A DNA stretch of 64,000 bases. It comes from Hanstruepera ponticola. GTDB taxonomy: Bacteria; Bacteroidota; Bacteroidia; Flavobacteriales; Flavobacteriaceae. The notes beneath the pieces are model-generated. The model made no database searches and was not told the origin of the DNA. It saw only the letters and a list, made by a program, of their open reading frames with translations. The stretch's first letter is position 1, and every line of letters starts with the position of its first letter. Location of the stretch: NCBI RefSeq assembly GCF_012931685.1, contig NZ_JABANC010000001.1, positions 620,001 to 684,000 of the forward strand. The letters run 5' to 3'. This document shows positions 35,959 to 47,149 of the stretch, piece by piece. A program made the translations under genes and the position numbers.

Positions 35959-37806
35959 TCAATTTTCGCCAAGTACAGTTAATGAATCATCCATTTGTTT
36001 TATTTGAATACTTGAAACATCAATTAAGATAGCATTTATATTTCTAGATGGTCTTTCCCATTGGGAAACCCAACTATTTTGAGAGGCAGGCCCAATAAGT
36101 AAATCTATGTTATGAGTATTTGCTATTGTCTCGATTTTTAATTCAGCCCAACCATTATTTAATAATTTAATTTCGGCTTTTTCTGAAGAAAAACCATGGG
36201 CAGATCTGATGCCTTTTAACTTGCCGCTTCTCAAATTAAAAACAGCATCTGTACGGCTTGGATAACTCCCTTGAATTCTTAATCCAAAGAAATCTCCTTT
36301 ACCATCTGGTTTAACTCTAACAGTGACTTCAACTCTTTTGGTGCTTTTTAACTTGATATCTTTAATGGCAACATAAGCATTGTTTATGGTATCTTTTCTC
36401 TCTACTTTATAAATAGATTTATTAGATGATAAAGACTTTAAATCAATATCTTTTTTTCTCCATAAATTTATTTTTGGTAATTCAAGATTAATCCTATTTG
36501 ATGTATTTATTGAGTCAATGTTTAGGGTAATATCAGATAAATTAAAGCGCTCTTTTAAACTTATTAGTTCTTGTTTTAAAACAGCCTGATTAGATCTTAA
36601 ATGATTTATATTTAAAAGATTCCATTTAAACTCTTTTTTTAAAACAGAGTTATAGTTTGCAAGTTCATTTTTATATTTATTTAAAAGATTATCGAGGTAG
36701 TTTGGTTTATATACCTTATTTATAGCATAAGCTAATTCTTTTAAATAAACAGTGTCTTTAGATTTATCTAAAAACGGAACATGCTTGTATTCGTCCAATA
36801 ATTGACCTGAATTACCGTCAAAAGCAATGGGTTCTAGTTTGCTCGTTATTGGGTTGTAATAGTATCGTACATTAATAAGAGGTAGTCCATGAGTTGCCCC
36901 AAACAAATTTAAAATGGCATTTTGCATTGCCAACTCTTTAATATCAAAAACTTCATCAAGTGTTTTGTTACCTCTATATGAATCCAACAAAAGTGCTTTA
37001 CCTGTTTTAAAATAGTTTCGCATACTTTGGTTTTCAAGAACTTTACCTTCACCAAATACAGAAATAGGATAATCAACCTTATAATCCATGAATTCTTTCC
37101 ATTCAATACCAGAAAGATTACCAGTTCTTTTTGAAATTTTTACATTATTCCAAAATGGATCTTCAGAGAATTTCAAAATAATACTTTCCTTACGTTTGTT
37201 ACTTTCGATGGTTCTTTTATCAAACGATTCTTCAATAGCATAAATACCAACATCTTTTGAAATATAATTAGAACTGTTATCTAATTTAACATGAATTGCA
37301 CTCTCTAAAAAATCATAACGCAGCCCTATTAAATCTTCATCTTTAATGGCTCTATGGTATAGCCATTCATTAATAAATCCTCGAGTTCCTGGTCTATGAA
37401 TTGAGAATTTACGCATTCCCATTATGGTTTGGTCGTCCTTTAATTTCACTCTAAAAGACCATTTGTCACCCCTTAAGTGATCTATCCAATCACCTTTAAG
37501 TCTTACTTCGGCTCTGTATTCTTTAAAGTTATAGGTAACTGTAGCTGGAACATAATCAGAATCACTAGTCTCTAGAATCCCAAGTTCTAATGCTTTATTT
37601 TTTTTCTTTTTTAGTTTTTGGTAGCTTTTTTCATTAAACGTGAGCTGTAAAAAATTTAATGTGGTTTTTTGCTCAATATTTTCAGGTGCTGAAATATATT
37701 TTGATGATTTTTTGCTAAAATTCTTCAATGAGGTTAAGAGGACTATTAAAATTAATAATCCTCCTAAAAGGTAATAGTTGTTGCTATTTGAAGTTTTTAG
37801 CTTCAT
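35959..37806 (-). CDS. CotH-like kinase with C-terminal sugar-binding-like domain
   Basis: A 615-residue membrane-anchored protein: TM at about 12-26, then a CotH-like region (about 85-400) with VRLKGDW (101-107), KWSFRVKL (115-122), a lysine-rich fold ending VGIYAIEESFDKRTI (186-200), the helix NAILNLFGATHG (296-307) and the metal-site-like FDGNSG (329-334). CotH proteins are atypical secreted kinases. The last 145 residues form a beta-sandwich-like domain resembling carbohydrate-binding modules. It precedes the flippase and follows the DUF4956 gene by 6 bases. Surface phosphorylation of protein or glycan is inferred; the catalytic motif is not canonical. Confidence 0.75.
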   Translation of the reverse strand: MKLKTSNSNNYYLLGGLLILIVLLTSLKNFSKKSSKYISAPENIEQKTTLNFLQLTFNEKSYQKLKKKKNKALELGILETSDSDYVPATVTYNFKEYRAEVRLKGDWIDHLRGDKWSFRVKLKDDQTIMGMRKFSIHRPGTRGFINEWLYHRAIKDEDLIGLRYDFLESAIHVKLDNSSNYISKDVGIYAIEESFDKRTIESNKRKESIILKFSEDPFWNNVKISKRTGNLSGIEWKEFMDYKVDYPISVFGEGKVLENQSMRNYFKTGKALLLDSYRGNKTLDEVFDIKELAMQNAILNLFGATHGLPLINVRYYYNPITSKLEPIAFDGNSGQLLDEYKHVPFLDKSKDTVYLKELAYAINKVYKPNYLDNLLNKYKNELANYNSVLKKEFKWNLLNINHLRSNQAVLKQELISLKERFNLSDITLNIDSINTSNRINLELPKINLWRKKDIDLKSLSSNKSIYKVERKDTINNAYVAIKDIKLKSTKRVEVTVRVKPDGKGDFFGLRIQGSYPSRTDAVFNLRSGKLKGIRSAHGFSSEKAEIKLLNNGWAELKIETIANTHNIDLLIGPASQNSWVSQWERPSRNINAILIDVSSIQIKQMDDSLTVLGEN

Positions 37807-37812
37807 AAGAAT

Positions 37813-38490
37813 TTAATAGTTTTCTATAAAACTGAATTGAATATCTCCTAAAGTCTTTAAATCATTTTTAGCATTTATTATATCATTAAAGTCAGTAAAC
37901 TCTACACTCAATGATAATTCTGTTGTGTTATTTACTTCGTCTAATCGTCTTAAGCTTAATTGGGAACTGTGCTTTTTAAGTATATCCAGTATTTGGTTCT
38001 CATCTAGGGCTTTATCAGATGTATTTGATAGCGTAATGATTAAGTTTTGCTGAACAGTTCTCTTAACTGAATTATAATTTTGAATTACAATATAGAATAT
38101 GATAATTACAGCTCCAATGAGTGTAACAATACGCTGATTGGCTCCCATTCCCAATCCTAGTGCTATGGCAACAAAAAAGTAAACTAGTTCTTCAGGCTCT
38201 TTAATAGCCGTTCTAAACCTAACAATAGATAATGCTCCTACAAGACCTAGTGATAATGCTAGAGATGATTTTACTATTGATATGACCAACATAACCGTGA
38301 CCGCTATCAGAACGAAGGTTTGTGTTAGTTTTTTTCTGTTAGATAATGAATTTCCATATTTAGAATACACCAATCCTATGATGTAAGATAAAATGATGGT
38401 AATAAAAATATTAATTAAAAAATCAATTAGTGATGATTCTCCGGATCCAAATTGATTTGCAATGTCGGTTAAAAAAGATTGTTCTTGCAT
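37813..38490 (-). CDS. DUF4956 membrane protein
   Basis: A 225-residue protein with four TM helices in the first 135 residues and the family signature LGLVGALSIVRFRTAIKEP with ELVYFFVAIALGLGMG (about 81-115), then a small soluble C-terminal domain (about 145-225) of ferredoxin-like pattern. DUF4956 proteins recur next to VTC polyphosphate-polymerase-like and CotH genes in many bacteria, which is the arrangement here. Function unknown; a membrane partner or channel for the neighbouring VTC protein is plausible. Spacing of 6 and 20 bases to its neighbours supports one unit. Confidence 0.88.
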   Translation of the reverse strand: MQEQSFLTDIANQFGSGESSLIDFLINIFITIILSYIIGLVYSKYGNSLSNRKKLTQTFVLIAVTVMLVISIVKSSLALSLGLVGALSIVRFRTAIKEPEELVYFFVAIALGLGMGANQRIVTLIGAVIIIFYIVIQNYNSVKRTVQQNLIITLSNTSDKALDENQILDILKKHSSQLSLRRLDEVNNTTELSLSVEFTDFNDIINAKNDLKTLGDIQFSFIENY

Positions 38491-38510
38491 TGTATAATAA
38501 TGTTAGTTGC

Positions 38511-39266
38511 TTATTGTGGAAAATGTTTAATCGTGTTTACGCCGTTTACGTATTTTGAGTTTTTGTTTAATCTAAAGGGAAATTGTGTTGATATCGCATT
38601 AGCTTTTTGGTCATCATCTAATCCATACTTTAATTCAATAATCTTGTTTTCGTCGTACTTTGGCGCTAAATTAAAATTATTAAATCGTTTATCAATTCTA
38701 TGATACAATAAATTAAAATCCAAAGTGGTTCTATACTTATTATCTGCAGATAAATAGTATTTCCTTGAATAAGAATTAAGCAGTGTTGGAACAACCATTT
38801 TCACTGATTCCAAAATTGGTTCTGGTAAATTAGATTTTCTAAATATACCTTGTATGTATTGATTAGTAAACTTATTGTCTAAATCAAATGACTCAAGTTT
38901 ATAAGACCACTTATCTCCAACAATTCCTTTTTTAATTTTAATTTCTAAAACAGGTTTTTGAATATTCCCAAAGGTATCTCCATACCATCGAATTCTAATT
39001 TTTTTTCGATTAGAAACGCCAAGTACATTATCAAAATAGTCATTGTAACCCGCAGTATCAAAGTAGATGTTATTAACCTGACGCAAGTGGAAAACTTCTC
39101 TAAAAAGAGCTTTGTTTTGTTTTATATACTGTTCTATTGTTTTAAGAGAAAAGTTATCTGGTACTGTAAATTTTCGTTCATAACGAAAGTTATGTTTTTT
39201 ATCAATTGCAGAAAAATTGCTATCTCCAAGAAACTCTTTCAATTTATTTACAAACACATTTTCCAT
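38511..39266 (-). CDS. VTC-domain polyphosphate-polymerase-like protein
   Basis: A 251-residue soluble VTC domain. Visible tunnel residues match those of yeast Vtc4: Glu30-Arg-Lys32, YFDT (68-71), Arg91 and Arg93 (in KIRIRW), Glu108 and Lys110 (LEIK), Arg168 (SRKY), Arg179 and Asp183 (RTTLDF), Glu211 and Lys213 (ELKYG). With this set intact it could make polyphosphate from ATP, or use the triphosphate tunnel fold for a related phosphoryl transfer. No signal peptide is seen, so it acts in the cytoplasm, probably beside the DUF4956 membrane protein. Its stop is 20 bases from that gene. Confidence 0.88.
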   Translation of the reverse strand: MENVFVNKLKEFLGDSNFSAIDKKHNFRYERKFTVPDNFSLKTIEQYIKQNKALFREVFHLRQVNNIYFDTAGYNDYFDNVLGVSNRKKIRIRWYGDTFGNIQKPVLEIKIKKGIVGDKWSYKLESFDLDNKFTNQYIQGIFRKSNLPEPILESVKMVVPTLLNSYSRKYYLSADNKYRTTLDFNLLYHRIDKRFNNFNLAPKYDENKIIELKYGLDDDQKANAISTQFPFRLNKNSKYVNGVNTIKHFPQ

Positions 39267-39269
39267 AGG

Positions 39270-41795
39270 TTATTGGCTATTTCTGGTTTCTGCACTACTT
39301 CTACCAAACTCCACACCGTACATTCTGTCCTTAACATTCTCTGTTGATTCTATTTTTTGCCCATCAACTATTAATGATGATGTGTTTTCAATAAGATATT
39401 TTGTTTCAACATCGGTCATCTTAACTATATTAACAGTAATATTTGATGGTCCAAACTCTGGTTTCTTTTGAAAAGCAGTAAAAGCTAATTTGGTTTTATA
39501 AATTTTCAAGTTTTCAATTTTGACTATAGATAAATCTTTACCTGCAACCGCTATTTCGCTTTGTGAAACTTCAACATTTATAATGGTCATTCTACTGTCT
39601 TCGCCTGCGCTTAGGCCTTTGTCTCCAGCATTGGTTATATAAACATTGTCAACAATTAAGTCTGACCCTGAAACATCAATTGCATCATTACCCAAATTAT
39701 CAAAGCGACAATTCTTTATTGTTCCATTGACAAAATCACCATCAAATGCATCTGATTGCGTTTCAGAAATACTACTATTAGTCATTATGAATTTTGCTCT
39801 CACAACATTTAGCGCATCTTCACATTTATTACCTTTTATTGAAATATGATTTAACTTAACTGGCGATTCATAAAATGTAACTGCTCCTGTAACACTCCAG
39901 TTTTGATGAATCGGGTTTCTTAAATTATTAAACTCAACATAATTTAAAATCGATTGTTTTTGATCACTTAAAATTAGTAACCCTTGGCCTTTATTATCCG
40001 TGGATTCAAAAACTATAGGATTATCAGCAGTACCTTGAAAATTTAATGGTGAGTGAGATATTATTTTTCCGCCTTCTAAAATATCGATAACTGTTCCTTT
40101 TTCAATTTTAAAAATGTGATCACTAGGAATAACCAAGGGTTCACTAATGGTTACGTTTTTATTTTTAAAGGAGATGGTGTCGTTAGAAACCACAATATCA
40201 CTATGATTATTAATATATTTTGGGTTTCTAAATAAATCGTCTTCTATAGTTTCTCTTTCAGTATAAGGTAATATTGTTGATGTTAAAGAGTTGTTTAAAC
40301 CAAGTATTGTATATGAAATATTTAAATCAAAAATATGTTTGTGTAAAATAAATCCTGTTTGTTTATTTTTTTTGCTTACAAATAGATTTTGAAAACTTTG
40401 AGGTAAATCAATACGTATTGTATCATGATTTCCGCTTAATAATAATTGCTTAGGGTTTAGTTCAGTTATCAATTTATTTTCATAATTCAACCCATTAATC
40501 TGAATTGGATAGTGGCTTATGTTAGAAACCAGTAGTTCTATTTTTTTGTTATCGATTGATACTAATTCTGGTTTTATTGATTTGTTTATATAAAGATTAC
40601 TGTTAATGCCTCTTTGGTTTATTTTTAAAATATCAAAATCAAAAATAACCTTTGGATAATAACTATTTATCAAAACAAGCTCTTTTTCAAAGGTTTCAAT
40701 ATCATTTAATAAACTATTGAAAATGTCTTGGTTTGAAAGTTCCTCTAGGGTTTTAATATATAGTTCTTGAAATTTTAGGTCATTTATTAATGGTTTCTCT
40801 AAATAATCAATAGTCTTTCCTAAGTGACTTGAACTAACAAAAAACGGTTCAAGTAAGTTTGTGTCTTTATTATAAATCAAATAAAAAGTGTCATCAATTT
40901 TATTGGCATATACCGTAAATAAAGCCATATAGTTTGCTAACTTATCTATTGCAATAAATTTATCTAAACTAATTTTAGAAGCAGCAAAATCATTACAAAG
41001 CTTGATAGCCAACTTACTTTGTTCGCCTTTAAAATCTATAAAATCTAAAAGGCTTTTATGGTCATTAATAGCTTGGAAAAAAGCATTAGTATTTTTGATT
41101 AGGCCAATTGTTGCACCACTATTTTTAGAATAATTTGTCACATTTTCTCTTGTAGAAAACAAAGAATCATTTTCCACATAATAAAATGTTGGTAAATATT
41201 GAATGTCATACGCATTTAAATGATTCTGAAATAAACTAGTGTATGGATTAGGAACACTTTTAATCGGTTTCGCGCTTTGATTGATTAATTGGGGAGCAAC
41301 TGCTTTAAGTGAGTTACTAATTGTGTCAAACCATTTTTCTTGAAACTTATTATAGGTTTTCTTCTTTATTGAAGCTGTATTAAAGTTAATAAAAGGCAAA
41401 GCCTTTCTAAAAACACAATAAGATTTTTGATTATAATTATAAATAACCCCAGAGTTGTTTATTGAAAGATTAATTATACTCGCTTTAGGGTCAATACTGT
41501 GTAATTGTATGTCAAAATCAGACTCTAAATCTTGGCGCTGTGTAGAAGCTTTAGCAACTATCAATTCTCTGCTGCCATATTTTTCAATAATTGCTGAAAA
41601 AAAAGTAGAGTCATTTTTCCTGTTTTCAAATAAGACGTTACCGTAATCTAGTGGCGCTTTGGGGTAGTAAGGATTAAAATCGCTAGTTATTGCTTCAGAA
41701 TCATTACTTTTATAAAACAATAGGCTCAATACGAGAAGAATTAAAGGAATTCCCAGTATAAATCTTAAGTTAGTATTTGTAATCCAATTAAGCAT
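39270..41795 (-). CDS. Membrane-anchored beta-helix protein with degenerate CotH-like region
   Basis: An 841-residue protein with one TM (about 11-27) and an outside part. Residues about 275-350 repeat the spacing of the CotH-like neighbour: LANYMALFTVYAN, then FYLIYNKDTNLLEPFFVSSS where the neighbour has YYYNPITSKLEPIAFDGNSG. The metal-site Asp of the neighbour is Ser here, suggesting a pseudokinase. Residues about 560-830 form a right-handed parallel beta-helix with repeated short strands (for example NDAIDVSGSDLIVDNVYI), a fold used for binding or cleaving polysaccharide. Three bases separate it from the VTC gene. Role unknown; the kinase-like reading is my inference. Confidence 0.65.
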   Translation of the reverse strand: MLNWITNTNLRFILGIPLILLVLSLLFYKSNDSEAITSDFNPYYPKAPLDYGNVLFENRKNDSTFFSAIIEKYGSRELIVAKASTQRQDLESDFDIQLHSIDPKASIINLSINNSGVIYNYNQKSYCVFRKALPFINFNTASIKKKTYNKFQEKWFDTISNSLKAVAPQLINQSAKPIKSVPNPYTSLFQNHLNAYDIQYLPTFYYVENDSLFSTRENVTNYSKNSGATIGLIKNTNAFFQAINDHKSLLDFIDFKGEQSKLAIKLCNDFAASKISLDKFIAIDKLANYMALFTVYANKIDDTFYLIYNKDTNLLEPFFVSSSHLGKTIDYLEKPLINDLKFQELYIKTLEELSNQDIFNSLLNDIETFEKELVLINSYYPKVIFDFDILKINQRGINSNLYINKSIKPELVSIDNKKIELLVSNISHYPIQINGLNYENKLITELNPKQLLLSGNHDTIRIDLPQSFQNLFVSKKNKQTGFILHKHIFDLNISYTILGLNNSLTSTILPYTERETIEDDLFRNPKYINNHSDIVVSNDTISFKNKNVTISEPLVIPSDHIFKIEKGTVIDILEGGKIISHSPLNFQGTADNPIVFESTDNKGQGLLILSDQKQSILNYVEFNNLRNPIHQNWSVTGAVTFYESPVKLNHISIKGNKCEDALNVVRAKFIMTNSSISETQSDAFDGDFVNGTIKNCRFDNLGNDAIDVSGSDLIVDNVYITNAGDKGLSAGEDSRMTIINVEVSQSEIAVAGKDLSIVKIENLKIYKTKLAFTAFQKKPEFGPSNITVNIVKMTDVETKYLIENTSSLIVDGQKIESTENVKDRMYGVEFGRSSAETRNSQ

Positions 41796-41822
41796 TTGTT
41801 TTTATTTAAATCCTCGATTGCT

Positions 41823-42689
41823 TTAATCAATCGAGATTGTATAATCTTCTAATTTTCCTAATGAATTTATGTCATTTCCGTTCAAGTGAATTAACCTGAA
41901 GCTTACTATGCCTTCTTTGGAAACATCTACAATAACAAAGTTATCACGAACGCCTCCTCCCATTCCAGATGATATATAGGTAATATTATCTGTATTTTGG
42001 TAAGAATATTCAATTATATGATTTTTTTTCTTTCGTTCTTTAGAAAATGCACCAACATCGCCTGCAAACAAATATACAGGCTTTTCTAATTCTCTTAAAA
42101 TGGGTTCAATCACTGACCAATAATTTGGAGTTTCAGCTTTGTTTTGCAACGAATTAGGTCTAGGTATTGGGGATTTGTCTTTTGACCACCAAATTACCTG
42201 ATGACAAAAAATAAATATGTTTTTCACATTTTTCCCCTCAATTCTTAATCTGTTTTTTAAAAAAACCAATTGTTCATTTGATATATTCCATTTATCAATA
42301 TTTGGATCTAAAATCACAAATAGATTATCATTTAAAACAAAGCTTTTGTATGATTTTCCAAAGTCAGCTTCAAACTTATCCAATGGTCCATCGTGATTAC
42401 CTCTTGCAACATAAATAGGCATATTGAATTTAGAAATATCAGCTTTGGCTTGTTGCCACTTGTTCGGTTTCCAAACAACATCACCCAGCAAAACACCAAA
42501 CTCCATATTGTTCTGGCTGTTTATAAGCGGTATTTTATTAGTAAATGGCTTGTATAAACCATTATTACCTCCTTTTTTCAAAGGATCTCCATAAGTGTGT
42601 CCTGCAATAAAAAAAGAAAAGTCTTTTTGCTCTGTTTCTTTACACGAAACCATTGAAATTAACAATAAGAAGAAAAAATAACGTTTCAT
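41823..42689 (-). CDS. Exported metallophosphoesterase-like lipoprotein
   Basis: A 288-residue lipoprotein (lipobox MVSC, Cys16) with a calcineurin-like pattern: LLGDVVW, RGNHDGP and FIFCHQVIWW give the GD, GNHD and His motifs. Two standard metal-ligand sites differ: the first DxH position reads AGHTYGD, and the final GHxH reads AGDVGA. So it may be a divergent phosphatase or a non-catalytic member. Its start overlaps the pyrophosphatase stop by 4 bases. A periplasmic role on phosphate esters is inferred from fold and context. Confidence 0.75.
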   Translation of the reverse strand: MKRYFFFLLLISMVSCKETEQKDFSFFIAGHTYGDPLKKGGNNGLYKPFTNKIPLINSQNNMEFGVLLGDVVWKPNKWQQAKADISKFNMPIYVARGNHDGPLDKFEADFGKSYKSFVLNDNLFVILDPNIDKWNISNEQLVFLKNRLRIEGKNVKNIFIFCHQVIWWSKDKSPIPRPNSLQNKAETPNYWSVIEPILRELEKPVYLFAGDVGAFSKERKKKNHIIEYSYQNTDNITYISSGMGGGVRDNFVIVDVSKEGIVSFRLIHLNGNDINSLGKLEDYTISID

Positions 42690-43285
42690 ATTTTTAGGTT
42701 ATTATTAATCTCTTTTAAAGCCTCTTGTTCATTCCCCCATCCATGAATTTGAGTCTCGTCATTTTTGTTGTAGTTTAAGAACCACATCTCAATGATTTGT
42801 TGTATTTCGGGATAATACTCCTTTAAGTCTTTATAGCTGTTAGCATTAATAATTTGTTGGTCTATGTTTTTGGGAATAGCGATAATTTTGTAATCTAACT
42901 CTCCGTCATCAATCAGTTTTAAAACAGATATAGGAATTATTTCCATCACGGAGCCTGTTTTTACACTTTCAGATAATACTAATACATCTATAGCGTCTCC
43001 ATCACCTCCTTTATTGGGGTCTGAAAATGTAGCTGGAATAAAGCCATAATTTCCCAGATAGGGTAAAAAATTTATAATTCTATCCTGCCCATTTTCTTTA
43101 TCTATTTTGAAGGTATTTTCTTCCTTATGAAACTCATATTTTTTATTTGTTCCAGCTGGAATTTCTATTACAGCATTTAAAACACCATCATTTGAAAAAG
43201 TTGGTAGATTATAATAGTTTACTTTTTCAGTACATGATATAATTGTAAAGATAAAAATTAATAAAATGCTGCTTTTAACTAACAT
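42686..43285 (-). CDS. Inorganic pyrophosphatase (family I) with lipoprotein signal
   Basis: A 199-residue protein with family I PPase motifs: EIPAGTNKKYEFHKE (start of the fold), NYGFIPATF, and the metal-binding GGDGDAIDVLVL with Asp95, Asp97 and Asp100 intact (Ala replaces the usual Pro between them). It hydrolyses pyrophosphate to phosphate. Unusually it carries a signal peptide and lipobox (IISC, Cys18), placing it outside the cytoplasm. The frame opens at a TTG, but the ATG at 43283-43285 gives a proper signal peptide start (MLVKSS). Overlaps the phosphoesterase start by 4 bases. Confidence 0.85.
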   Translation of the reverse strand: MLVKSSILLIFIFTIISCTEKVNYYNLPTFSNDGVLNAVIEIPAGTNKKYEFHKEENTFKIDKENGQDRIINFLPYLGNYGFIPATFSDPNKGGDGDAIDVLVLSESVKTGSVMEIIPISVLKLIDDGELDYKIIAIPKNIDQQIINANSYKDLKEYYPEIQQIIEMWFLNYNKNDETQIHGWGNEQEALKEINNNLKI

Positions 43286-43310
43286 AAATAACAATTAAGA
43301 GAAAATTAAA

Positions 43311-43841
43311 CTATTCTCGTAACTTTTTGATAAATGATTTCTTTAGGGTCATGTAAGGTACATGCTTACCATTAATTTTTTTTGTAACTAGTTTATTTGA
43401 ACTTTTTTCAAAAGAAATAAATTTGTTAAACTTAAAATACTTGTCAATTTCATTACCAGAAATGTGTAGATTATTATCAGCAAATGAAATATCAATAGAT
43501 TTTATTTCAACTTCCTTAACTTCTTTACCACCTAAACTAATTTGAAGAACATTTGAAATATTATTTGCTCCAAATTTCGCAACTATTTTTCCATAATCAG
43601 TTGTAGGAATAGTTTTTTCAAGAATATGAATGTTTTTTTTTTGAAATTCATCAATAAAAATATTATTTAATATGAATTTGAATGTATCTGGTTTGTTAGT
43701 GTTAAAAGTCATAATTACCACTAACTCATTGGGTTTATTTAAAGCTAAACTGTCGTTGCTGGTTTCTCCTTCTATTTGCTCTTTTTTATTGTTGTTACAT
43801 GAAACTAATATTAATAAAAACAAAAAAGATTTTTTTAACAT
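43311..43841 (-). CDS. Hypothetical lipoprotein
   Basis: A 176-residue lipoprotein (lipobox LVSC, Cys15, then NNNKKEQ). The mature domain is predicted beta-rich with no motif I recognise. It is third in a row of lipoprotein genes, 16-17 bases from the pyrophosphatase and cysN genes, so it is probably co-expressed with both. Function unknown. Confidence 0.75.
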   Translation of the reverse strand: MLKKSFLFLLILVSCNNNKKEQIEGETSNDSLALNKPNELVVIMTFNTNKPDTFKFILNNIFIDEFQKKNIHILEKTIPTTDYGKIVAKFGANNISNVLQISLGGKEVKEVEIKSIDISFADNNLHISGNEIDKYFKFNKFISFEKSSNKLVTKKINGKHVPYMTLKKSFIKKLRE

Positions 43842-46699: not shown

Positions 46700-47149
46700 T
46701 TAGTTTTTCTTAAAGAAATTTCGAATTTTTCCAAGCGGTAATTTCAACCACATACGTTCGTGTAAATAATACAGTGCAAATTTCGTAAATAATTCGGTAA
46801 TAGCTATATATAATGCAATTTCATCATAGGCGTTTAATATTGCTCCAGAAATAAAGAATGTCATAGTTGTAGCCACTATACGCCAAGATATTGTTTTGTA
46901 AAGTGTTTTTCTTGATGTTACAACACCATCACGTTGTACAAATTGCCATAATCGTTCATGAAAGTAATAAATAATAAATTTGATTAGAAATTCAGCAGCA
47001 CCAATTTTTATGGCATGATCTATACTACAATTACCAGTAAGACAGGTTACCAAAAGAACCACCAGAATAGTATCTGAAGTTGCAACTATTCGCCAAGAAA
47101 TACCTTTTAAAAGGCTTCTAGCATGAGATTCTTGTTTGTATTTCGTCAT
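46700..47149 (-). CDS. Tandem DUF2061 membrane protein
   Basis: A 149-residue protein with two copies of the DUF2061 unit: KGISWRIVATSDTILVVLLVT (about 15-35) and KTISWRIVATTMTFFISGA (about 83-101), each followed by a YYxHERxW sequence (YYFHERLW, YYLHERMW). Each copy has about two TM helices. DUF2061 genes frequently lie beside or fused to cysC/cysN genes, so a link with sulfate activation or sulfate uptake is likely, but the biochemical role is unknown. Five and six bases from cysC and cysQ. Confidence 0.9.
   Translation of the reverse strand: MTKYKQESHARSLLKGISWRIVATSDTILVVLLVTCLTGNCSIDHAIKIGAAEFLIKFIIYYFHERLWQFVQRDGVVTSRKTLYKTISWRIVATTMTFFISGAILNAYDEIALYIAITELFTKFALYYLHERMWLKLPLGKIRNFFKKN

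Follow-up and report, generated by a model that had tools for sequence, protein, structure and literature searches.

The 64,000-nucleotide window analysed here, positions 620,001 to 684,000 of Hanstruepera ponticola contig NZ_JABANC010000001.1 (assembly GCF_012931685.1), contains seven nearly gapless genes on its minus strand (35959-43841) that constitute a genuine, recurrent envelope module, a variant of the published cluster of CotH, VTC and DUF4956 genes. The strongest new facts are the replacement of a catalytic Asp by His in the CotH-type protein, the exported hydrolases that accompany it and the spread of the arrangement beyond loci for the polysaccharide Pel; the function discussed below is proposed. 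The genes are situated in a Flavobacteriaceae-type polysaccharide locus and, in order of coordinate, are as follows:

35959-37806, minus strand: COTH, 615 amino acids, a CotH-type kinase domain with an N-terminal helix (likely an anchor) and a C-terminal domain like carbohydrate-binding modules and phage tail-fibre domains
37813-38490, minus strand: DUF4956 membrane protein (PF16316, E-value 2.9e-22), weakly MgtC-like, with the motif SLGLVGALS..R.R.AIK.PEEL in a hydrophobic stretch
38511-39266, minus strand: VTC, a cytosolic tunnel protein of polyphosphate-polymerase type, 251 amino acids (PF09359, 2.6e-24, above the cut-off)
39270-41795, minus strand: BHELIX, 841 amino acids, a degenerate CotH domain joined to a right-handed beta-helix like those of polysaccharide enzymes, from an AlphaFold2 model
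41823-42689, minus strand: MPE, an exported lipoprotein with a metallophosphoesterase fold and a divergent metal site (Metallophos, 4.7e-6)
42686-43294, minus strand: PPASE, a family I inorganic pyrophosphatase, lipoprotein (Pyrophosphatase, PF00719, 4.7e-37)
43311-43841, minus strand: LP7, a 176-amino-acid lipoprotein, fold without assignment, no Pfam or NCBIfam match at E<=0.1

The original prediction, made from the sequence alone, had described a nearly gapless set combining a VTC protein with intact tunnel residues, a DUF4956 membrane protein and exported lipoproteins resembling a metallophosphoesterase and a pyrophosphatase, all of which was borne out by these matches, by the lipoprotein leaders, by the residue conservation described below and by intergenic distances of 6, 20, 3, 27, -4 and 16 bp from low to high coordinate. 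Lipoprotein leaders were judged by eye from the translations of MPE, PPASE and LP7, and COTH and BHELIX, like LP7, had no Pfam match at E<=0.1. The predicted anatomy of an intracellular polymerase-type protein, a membrane protein and an envelope protein with a kinase fold likewise agrees with the Pfam matches, the fold match of COTH to Protein Data Bank (PDB) entry 5jd9 and the alignment of VTC to yeast Vtc proteins.

Conservation of the module

Conservation was assessed in 80 loci, the best 80 of 121 relatives obtained by scanning the VTC alignment against genome contigs, some of them short; L016 and L017 are near-copies, and the locus and genome samples overlap by coordinates, G012 being L013 (the same metagenome-assembled genome, MAG), G022 L087, G136 L011 and G287 L015. 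Among the 12 closest loci (L009-L020), the core order of beta-helix, VTC, DUF4956 and CotH genes was kept in 12/12, and CotH, VTC and DUF4956 were contiguous in the window and in all 12. The exact seven-gene order, proposed as a check in the original prediction, was found only in L013, which belongs to one other genus and in which the set likewise follows a CysQ-DUF2061-CysC-CysD-CysN block, so that the order of seven as a fixed unit was rejected. The six-gene order without the 176-amino-acid lipoprotein was present in five of the 12, and the only clear relative of LP7 among the 1080 open reading frames of the 80 loci was that of L013. The pyrophosphatase was found in 8/12 and an MPE-cluster gene in 9/12 (on the opposite strand in L011, and only 18% identical to that of the window in L015, one of the six-gene loci), one or both being present in 10/12, in keeping with the expectation that exported phosphate-releasing proteins recur in the module.

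The 80 loci comprised 49 of His-type (loci whose CotH falls in a single protein cluster, with L024 and L088 included manually), 11 of Asp-type, which have a canonical CotH, and 20 others, a 'none' group that includes L055, L073, L077 and L079, in which a canonical CotH is in the locus and outside the DUF4956 arrangement. DUF4956 was present in 55 of the 60 loci with a VTC-linked CotH (45/49 His-type and 10/11 Asp-type), and the linkage of the module was maintained at differing genomic sites. This conserved linkage, together with the four-gene core in 12/12, indicates that the cluster is not a chance assembly. A whole-genome search for CotH in 60 genomes gave matches in the own genome and in 3 of the 59 others, that in G019 being limited to the C-terminal domain, and no match in any of the four congeners. 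Further afield, a module of DUF4956, CotH/beta-helix and VTC was observed in L038 and L041 on contigs labelled Woesearchaeota, a label that may reflect contamination, and in seven Anaerolineae loci (L043, L044, L048, L054, L056, L058 and L082) a canonical CotH gene precedes those for a DUF4956 protein of double length (448-480 amino acids) and for VTC.

A special link of the module to synthesis of 3'-phosphoadenosine 5'-phosphosulfate (PAPS) had also been suggested. The seven genes are preceded by cysN at a spacing of 17 bp, and the CotH gene overlaps a flippase gene by 4 bp. Within up to 10 kb on each side, a span shortened by contig ends in some loci, just four of the 49 His-type loci had CysN, CysD and CysC, and each of these four belongs to the 12 closest. 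The pyrophosphate released by ATP sulfurylase is cytosolic, where an exported pyrophosphatase cannot reach it. On these two grounds the PAPS linkage was not supported and was treated as incidental. A DUF2061 membrane protein is encoded between cysQ and cysC at 46700-47149 of the window, as it is in 4/4 of the close loci with PAPS genes. Promoter and terminator scans barely differed from shuffled sequence (108 against 106.2 and 9 against 6.8, respectively).

The CotH-type protein and its beta-helix partner

The AlphaFold2 model of COTH (predicted local distance difference test score, pLDDT, 90.9) had as its top PDB matches the CotH kinase structures 5jd9 and 5jda, the fold being shared with 5jd9 over about 340 residues (E 8.6e-14; template-modelling score 0.64 by target length). 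The family profile matched 5jd9 at 1.6e-6, hhalign of the family against 30 canonical CotH gave a probability of 97.5%, and PF08757 was matched at E<=0.01 by 22 of the 46 family members, the protein of the window not among them; its CotH identity follows from the family profile, the fold match and these 22 members. Phage tail-fibre and CBM4/CBM16 folds, ranking after the CotH kinases, were matched by the C-terminal domain. A domain related to this C-terminus was also observed in exported proteins encoded by genes of their own immediately behind cysN (L008:8577-9215, L009:17336-18256 and L010:17339-18253), with a sulfotransferase next in L009 and L010.

The prediction of a CotH-type kinase thus stands for the fold and requires correction at the active site, where the usual catalytic Asp is missing. 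When the family profile was aligned with 5jd9 and with 30 canonical CotH proteins of Bacteroidota, His306 (codon 36889-36891) coincided with the first catalytic Asp, and His was found there in 46/46 aligned proteins (one from the window and the others from 45 of the 49 His-type loci, L017, L024, L028 and L088 being left out), such that COTH has one of the two catalytic Asp of CotH kinases (presumably D228 and D251 in Bacillus subtilis). The second active-site acid is retained as Asp330 (codon 36817-36819), with Asp in 41 and Glu in 5 of the 46, and Glu193, Glu201 and Glu325 were invariant in 46/46. All 30 canonical controls had Asp at both sites; these loci came from the best matches in the 38 genomes that were positive when 99 of the phylum were searched, and VTC neighbours could be present among them. 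Asp was also found in all 9 alignable proteins of the 11 Asp-type loci (2 not alignable), and the seven proteins of the four further VTC loci with canonical CotH away from the DUF4956 arrangement gave 3 Asp, 3 Ser and 1 not alignable. There were no instances of His at this site in any of the canonical CotH proteins read. In the Saprospiraceae loci L073, L077 and L079, two canonical-type CotH are near VTC without a DUF4956-cluster gene, and in every pair one member carries Ser in place of the first catalytic Asp. With His in place of the catalytic Asp, an ordinary ATP kinase reaction is not to be assumed for COTH.

The predicted beta-helix protein does contain a beta-helix, with weak PDB matches to GH87, PL6, GH28 and AlgG folds (pLDDT 87.7), and in addition a second, degenerate CotH domain that the original prediction had missed. 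This domain lacks the catalytic His and Asp, with no His at the site in 12/12 aligned proteins (the window and 11 loci). In more distant loci CotH and beta-helix are fused in one gene (e.g. L087, 1013 amino acids). In a tree of 58 CotH regions, built by a quick method and with the beta-helix set on long branches, the 12 stand-alone CotH (the window and 11 loci) were split off by one branch (Shimodaira-Hasegawa-like approximate likelihood ratio test, SH-aLRT, 99) and the 12 beta-helix proteins by another (SH-aLRT 100), with similar species order within both subtrees. The simplest reading of this sequence evolution is a duplication of the fused gene followed by a division of labour, in which one copy appears to have kept the kinase site and the other the beta-helix.

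VTC, DUF4956 and the exported hydrolases

The VTC family profile aligned to yeast Vtc4 (3g3q, E 6.4e-6) and Vtc2 (3g3o, E 9.1e-8). K32, R91, R93, R179, E211, K213, S237 and K238 were invariant in 30/30 aligned proteins (30 of 82 VTC proteins); K32, R91, R93 and R179 pair with Lys or Arg in the Vtc4 alignment, R91 and R93 corresponding by position to Vtc4 R264 and R266 (constant chain offset 3). E211, K213, S237 and K238 fall outside the significant alignment, and E211 is putatively equivalent to E426, going by the family motif, the pairing of S237 and K238 being likewise putative. Yeast VTC is impaired by R264A/R266A/E426N, and vacuolar polyphosphate requires basic channel residues (extract of PMC9911596; the literature below is likewise cited from extracts). 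Tripolyphosphatases may have Glu where the VTC family has the basic residues R28 and K213 (PMC4641920; the residue pairing is our own). Polymerase activity of VTC is likely but not certain. In DUF4956, a motif of RxRxAIK type lies in a hydrophobic stretch, with R91, R93, A95, I96 and K97 invariant in 19/19 aligned proteins, and may provide a basic membrane path parallel to the yeast VTC channel. Assignment of DUF4956 to MgtC was left as weak, since only 4/19 members matched at E<=0.1 (best 1.7e-4).

The calcineurin-like metallophosphoesterase metal motifs are taken here to be DxH, GDxx, GNHD, H and GHxH. In the MPE alignment (22 of 30 members, being 29 in the cluster and the window), H31, D70, N98, H99 and H163 were present in 22/22, the first Asp was absent in 22/22, and AGH and GDxG replace DxH and GHxH, with D211 in 20/22 and G213 in 21/22. 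Yeast endopolyphosphatases also have the metallophosphoesterase fold. An MPE-cluster gene was near VTC in 25/49 His-type, 0/11 Asp-type and 0/20 other loci (25/49 against 0/31, Fisher p 2e-7, shared ancestry ignored). PPASE relatives have the lipobox Cys and 12 pyrophosphatase catalytic residues, whose roles are assumed, in 9/9, with Asn (8) or Asp (1) at the position of Escherichia coli K142, and the acidocalcisomal pyrophosphatases 5cux, 5cuy and 5c5v were among the profile matches.

Across 299 family genomes including the own, VTC was matched in 24 at E<=0.001 and in 15 below 1e-14, one of these with an in-frame stop. MPE was matched in 17 genomes at E<=1e-20, and all 7 above 180 bits have VTC, the two genes being on different contigs in G215; of the weaker genomes, G214 (MPE touching VTC) and G022 (other contig) have VTC, and G006 (MPE 132 bits) has merely a weak VTC match. 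A lipoprotein pyrophosphatase above 200 bits was present in 20 genomes, of which 8 have VTC, all 8 within 4 kb. The cut-offs of 200 bits, 180 bits and, for VTC, 1e-14 were picked after seeing the tables. In 7 of the 12 VTC-less pyrophosphatase genomes the gene is at one conserved site resembling topA/miaB/gldK (names read from sequence; L091-L095, L098 and L099), and the VTC module occupies that same site in G066 and G232 (L102 and L104). The pyrophosphatase as a VTC-only gene was rejected, as 12/20 are without VTC and linked and unlinked copies are intermixed on a poorly resolved tree.

Possible function and comparison with known systems

The preferred reading, held tentatively and with somewhat less than even confidence, is that the genes form a phosphate module of the envelope in the service of a surface polysaccharide: VTC and DUF4956 would make and export polyphosphate, CotH would modify a glycan, and MPE and the pyrophosphatase would clear the remnants. 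What the computations establish is the identity of the genes, their predicted export signals, the folds of the CotH and beta-helix proteins, the recurring linkage and the replacement of Asp by His; polymerase activity, the route of export, the phosphate donor and acceptor and the part played by MPE and the pyrophosphatase are inferred. VTC would polymerise phosphate from ATP at the inner membrane face, and the conserved basic intramembrane motif of DUF4956 would be the route of the chain to the periplasm, as in the VTC complex at the yeast vacuole. His-type CotH, anchored outside the membrane with its sugar-binding-like domain, would pass phosphate to a glycan or glycan-bound protein, possibly assisted by the pseudokinase/beta-helix partner gripping or trimming the polysaccharide, and the exported MPE and lipoprotein pyrophosphatase would turn leftover chains and pyrophosphate into phosphate. 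Counted in favour of this are the VTC tunnel residues, the frequency of DUF4956 at CotH loci and its invariant basic residues in a hydrophobic segment, the basic R28 and K213 of VTC, the distribution of MPE between His-type and other loci, the proximity of the pyrophosphatase to VTC in 8/8, the sugar-active folds and a PPK1 polyphosphate kinase gene elsewhere in the own genome (G000 contig C14:39949-40491), which may already provide for ordinary polyphosphate storage. Deletions of the DUF4956-type and CotH homologues of Streptococcus intermedius, which alter Pel level and lower aggregation in artificial sputum medium (PMC12345266), were also counted in its favour.

Several points weigh against it. 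Polyphosphate synthesis by a bacterial VTC of this family, judged from its sequence, is likely but not certain, and E30 of VTC is acidic and possibly tripolyphosphatase-like, so that hydrolysis instead of polymerisation is possible. The change from Asp to His in CotH may reflect a loss of kinase activity, not a new activity, and MPE, in keeping only the middle ligands and losing the first Asp and GHxH, departs from the canonical metal motifs. In the family genomes, 7 of the 17 with an MPE match have no VTC match, all 7 being low (78-91 bits), 12 of the 20 with a lipoprotein pyrophosphatase above 200 bits have no VTC match of any kind, and in the VTC genome G072 the pyrophosphatase reaches only 147 bits and is 57 kb from VTC. 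Deletion of the S. intermedius VTC homologue is given without a reported drop in aggregation in the extract of PMC12345266.

A more specific form of the proposal, which must be considered unlikely, makes His-type CotH a polyphosphate-dependent extracytoplasmic phosphotransferase, for which VTC and DUF4956 would bring polyphosphate to the periplasm as a substitute for ATP, His306 would relay phosphate to a surface glycan, possibly as phospho-His, and MPE and the pyrophosphatase would remove short remnants. PPK1 works through phospho-His. Quite unlikely is a surface phosphate store, in which exported polyphosphate would be retained at the envelope to act as a polyanion or a reserve, MPE and the pyrophosphatase would reclaim phosphate in starvation, and CotH and the beta-helix protein would be binding scaffolds, not enzymes. 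The exported hydrolases, the Asp-to-His change, the degenerate second CotH and the yeast vacuole, where the VTC product shares a compartment with the endopolyphosphatases Ppn1 and Ppn2 (PMC10657179), are consistent with such a store, but the invariance of His306, Glu193, Glu201 and Glu325 and the always acidic position 330 argue for a retained active site.

About as unlikely is regulation of the ATP type, in which CotH would use a nucleotide donor to phosphorylate a protein of the polysaccharide machinery in the envelope, VTC would act as a tripolyphosphatase or as a sensor of nucleotides, and MPE would be the opposing phosphatase. In its favour, the Bacillus CotH is a kinase that uses ATP, 5jda contains Mg/AMP, E30 of VTC may resemble hydrolases and Whitfield et al. 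suggest regulation by phosphorylation (PMC7112168); however, we know of no ATP outside the inner membrane, the catalytic Asp of CotH is replaced and the pyrophosphatase is left unexplained. A chance collection of genes in a variable capsule locus, as absence from the congeners and the few matches among relatives might suggest, is very improbable given the four-gene core in the 12 closest loci, the congruent CotH and beta-helix subtrees and the linkage that persists at different genomic sites.

VTC, DUF4956 and CotH were correctly named as known neighbours, CotH, poly-phosphate polymerase and DUF4956 genes being described beside Gram-positive Pel loci (PMC7112168), and VTC and CotH genes are among those listed for the NELoc-2 locus of Clostridium perfringens (PMC2879425). 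In the extract of PMC12345266 the authors report that the three-gene arrangement was not found outside a Pel locus. None of 36 genomes (the own, 29 His-type and 6 Asp-type) had a PelG (PF16933) match in a search that recovered its positive control Thermotoga maritima, left out L012 and 24 further loci, included several MAGs that may be incomplete and did not extend to other pel genes. The CotH/VTC/DUF4956 arrangement, contrary to that report, exists in genomes without PelG. No paper treating a metallophosphoesterase together with CotH was among the matches listed in the open-licence PMC literature. The cluster known from Pel loci is thereby extended, and a clean residue difference divides its two types. 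How phosphorylation is achieved in bacteria beyond the inner membrane, in a space without available ATP, is largely open, and this conserved set makes the question directly testable; a polyphosphate-dependent CotH, if true, would be an answer to powering phosphorylation without ATP and would give the bacterial envelope an equivalent of the acidocalcisome.

Three known systems resemble the module in part. The accessory genes of Gram-positive Pel loci likewise place CotH, which is secreted there, a VTC-type gene and DUF4956 contiguously beside polysaccharide genes, and their DUF4956-type protein is described with an MgtC domain, a likeness to the weakly MgtC-like DUF4956 of the window. Unlike Pel loci, the module of the window occurs in Bacteroidota and other phyla, with PelG not found, and has a His-type CotH with a beta-helix, exported MPE and pyrophosphatase. 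The eukaryotic VTC complex of the acidocalcisome or vacuole shares the VTC tunnel domain, a basic membrane path and degrading enzymes in the receiving compartment, whereas in the window the VTC domain is alone in a 251-amino-acid protein, DUF4956 is in place of a Vtc1-like subunit, a CotH partner is present and the setting is a bacterial envelope, not an organelle. The Bacillus CotH kinase (5jd9/5jda) has in common with COTH the fold and the second active-site acid, but differs in that the first Asp is consistently His in the family of the window, which also has extra sugar-binding-like or beta-helix domains.

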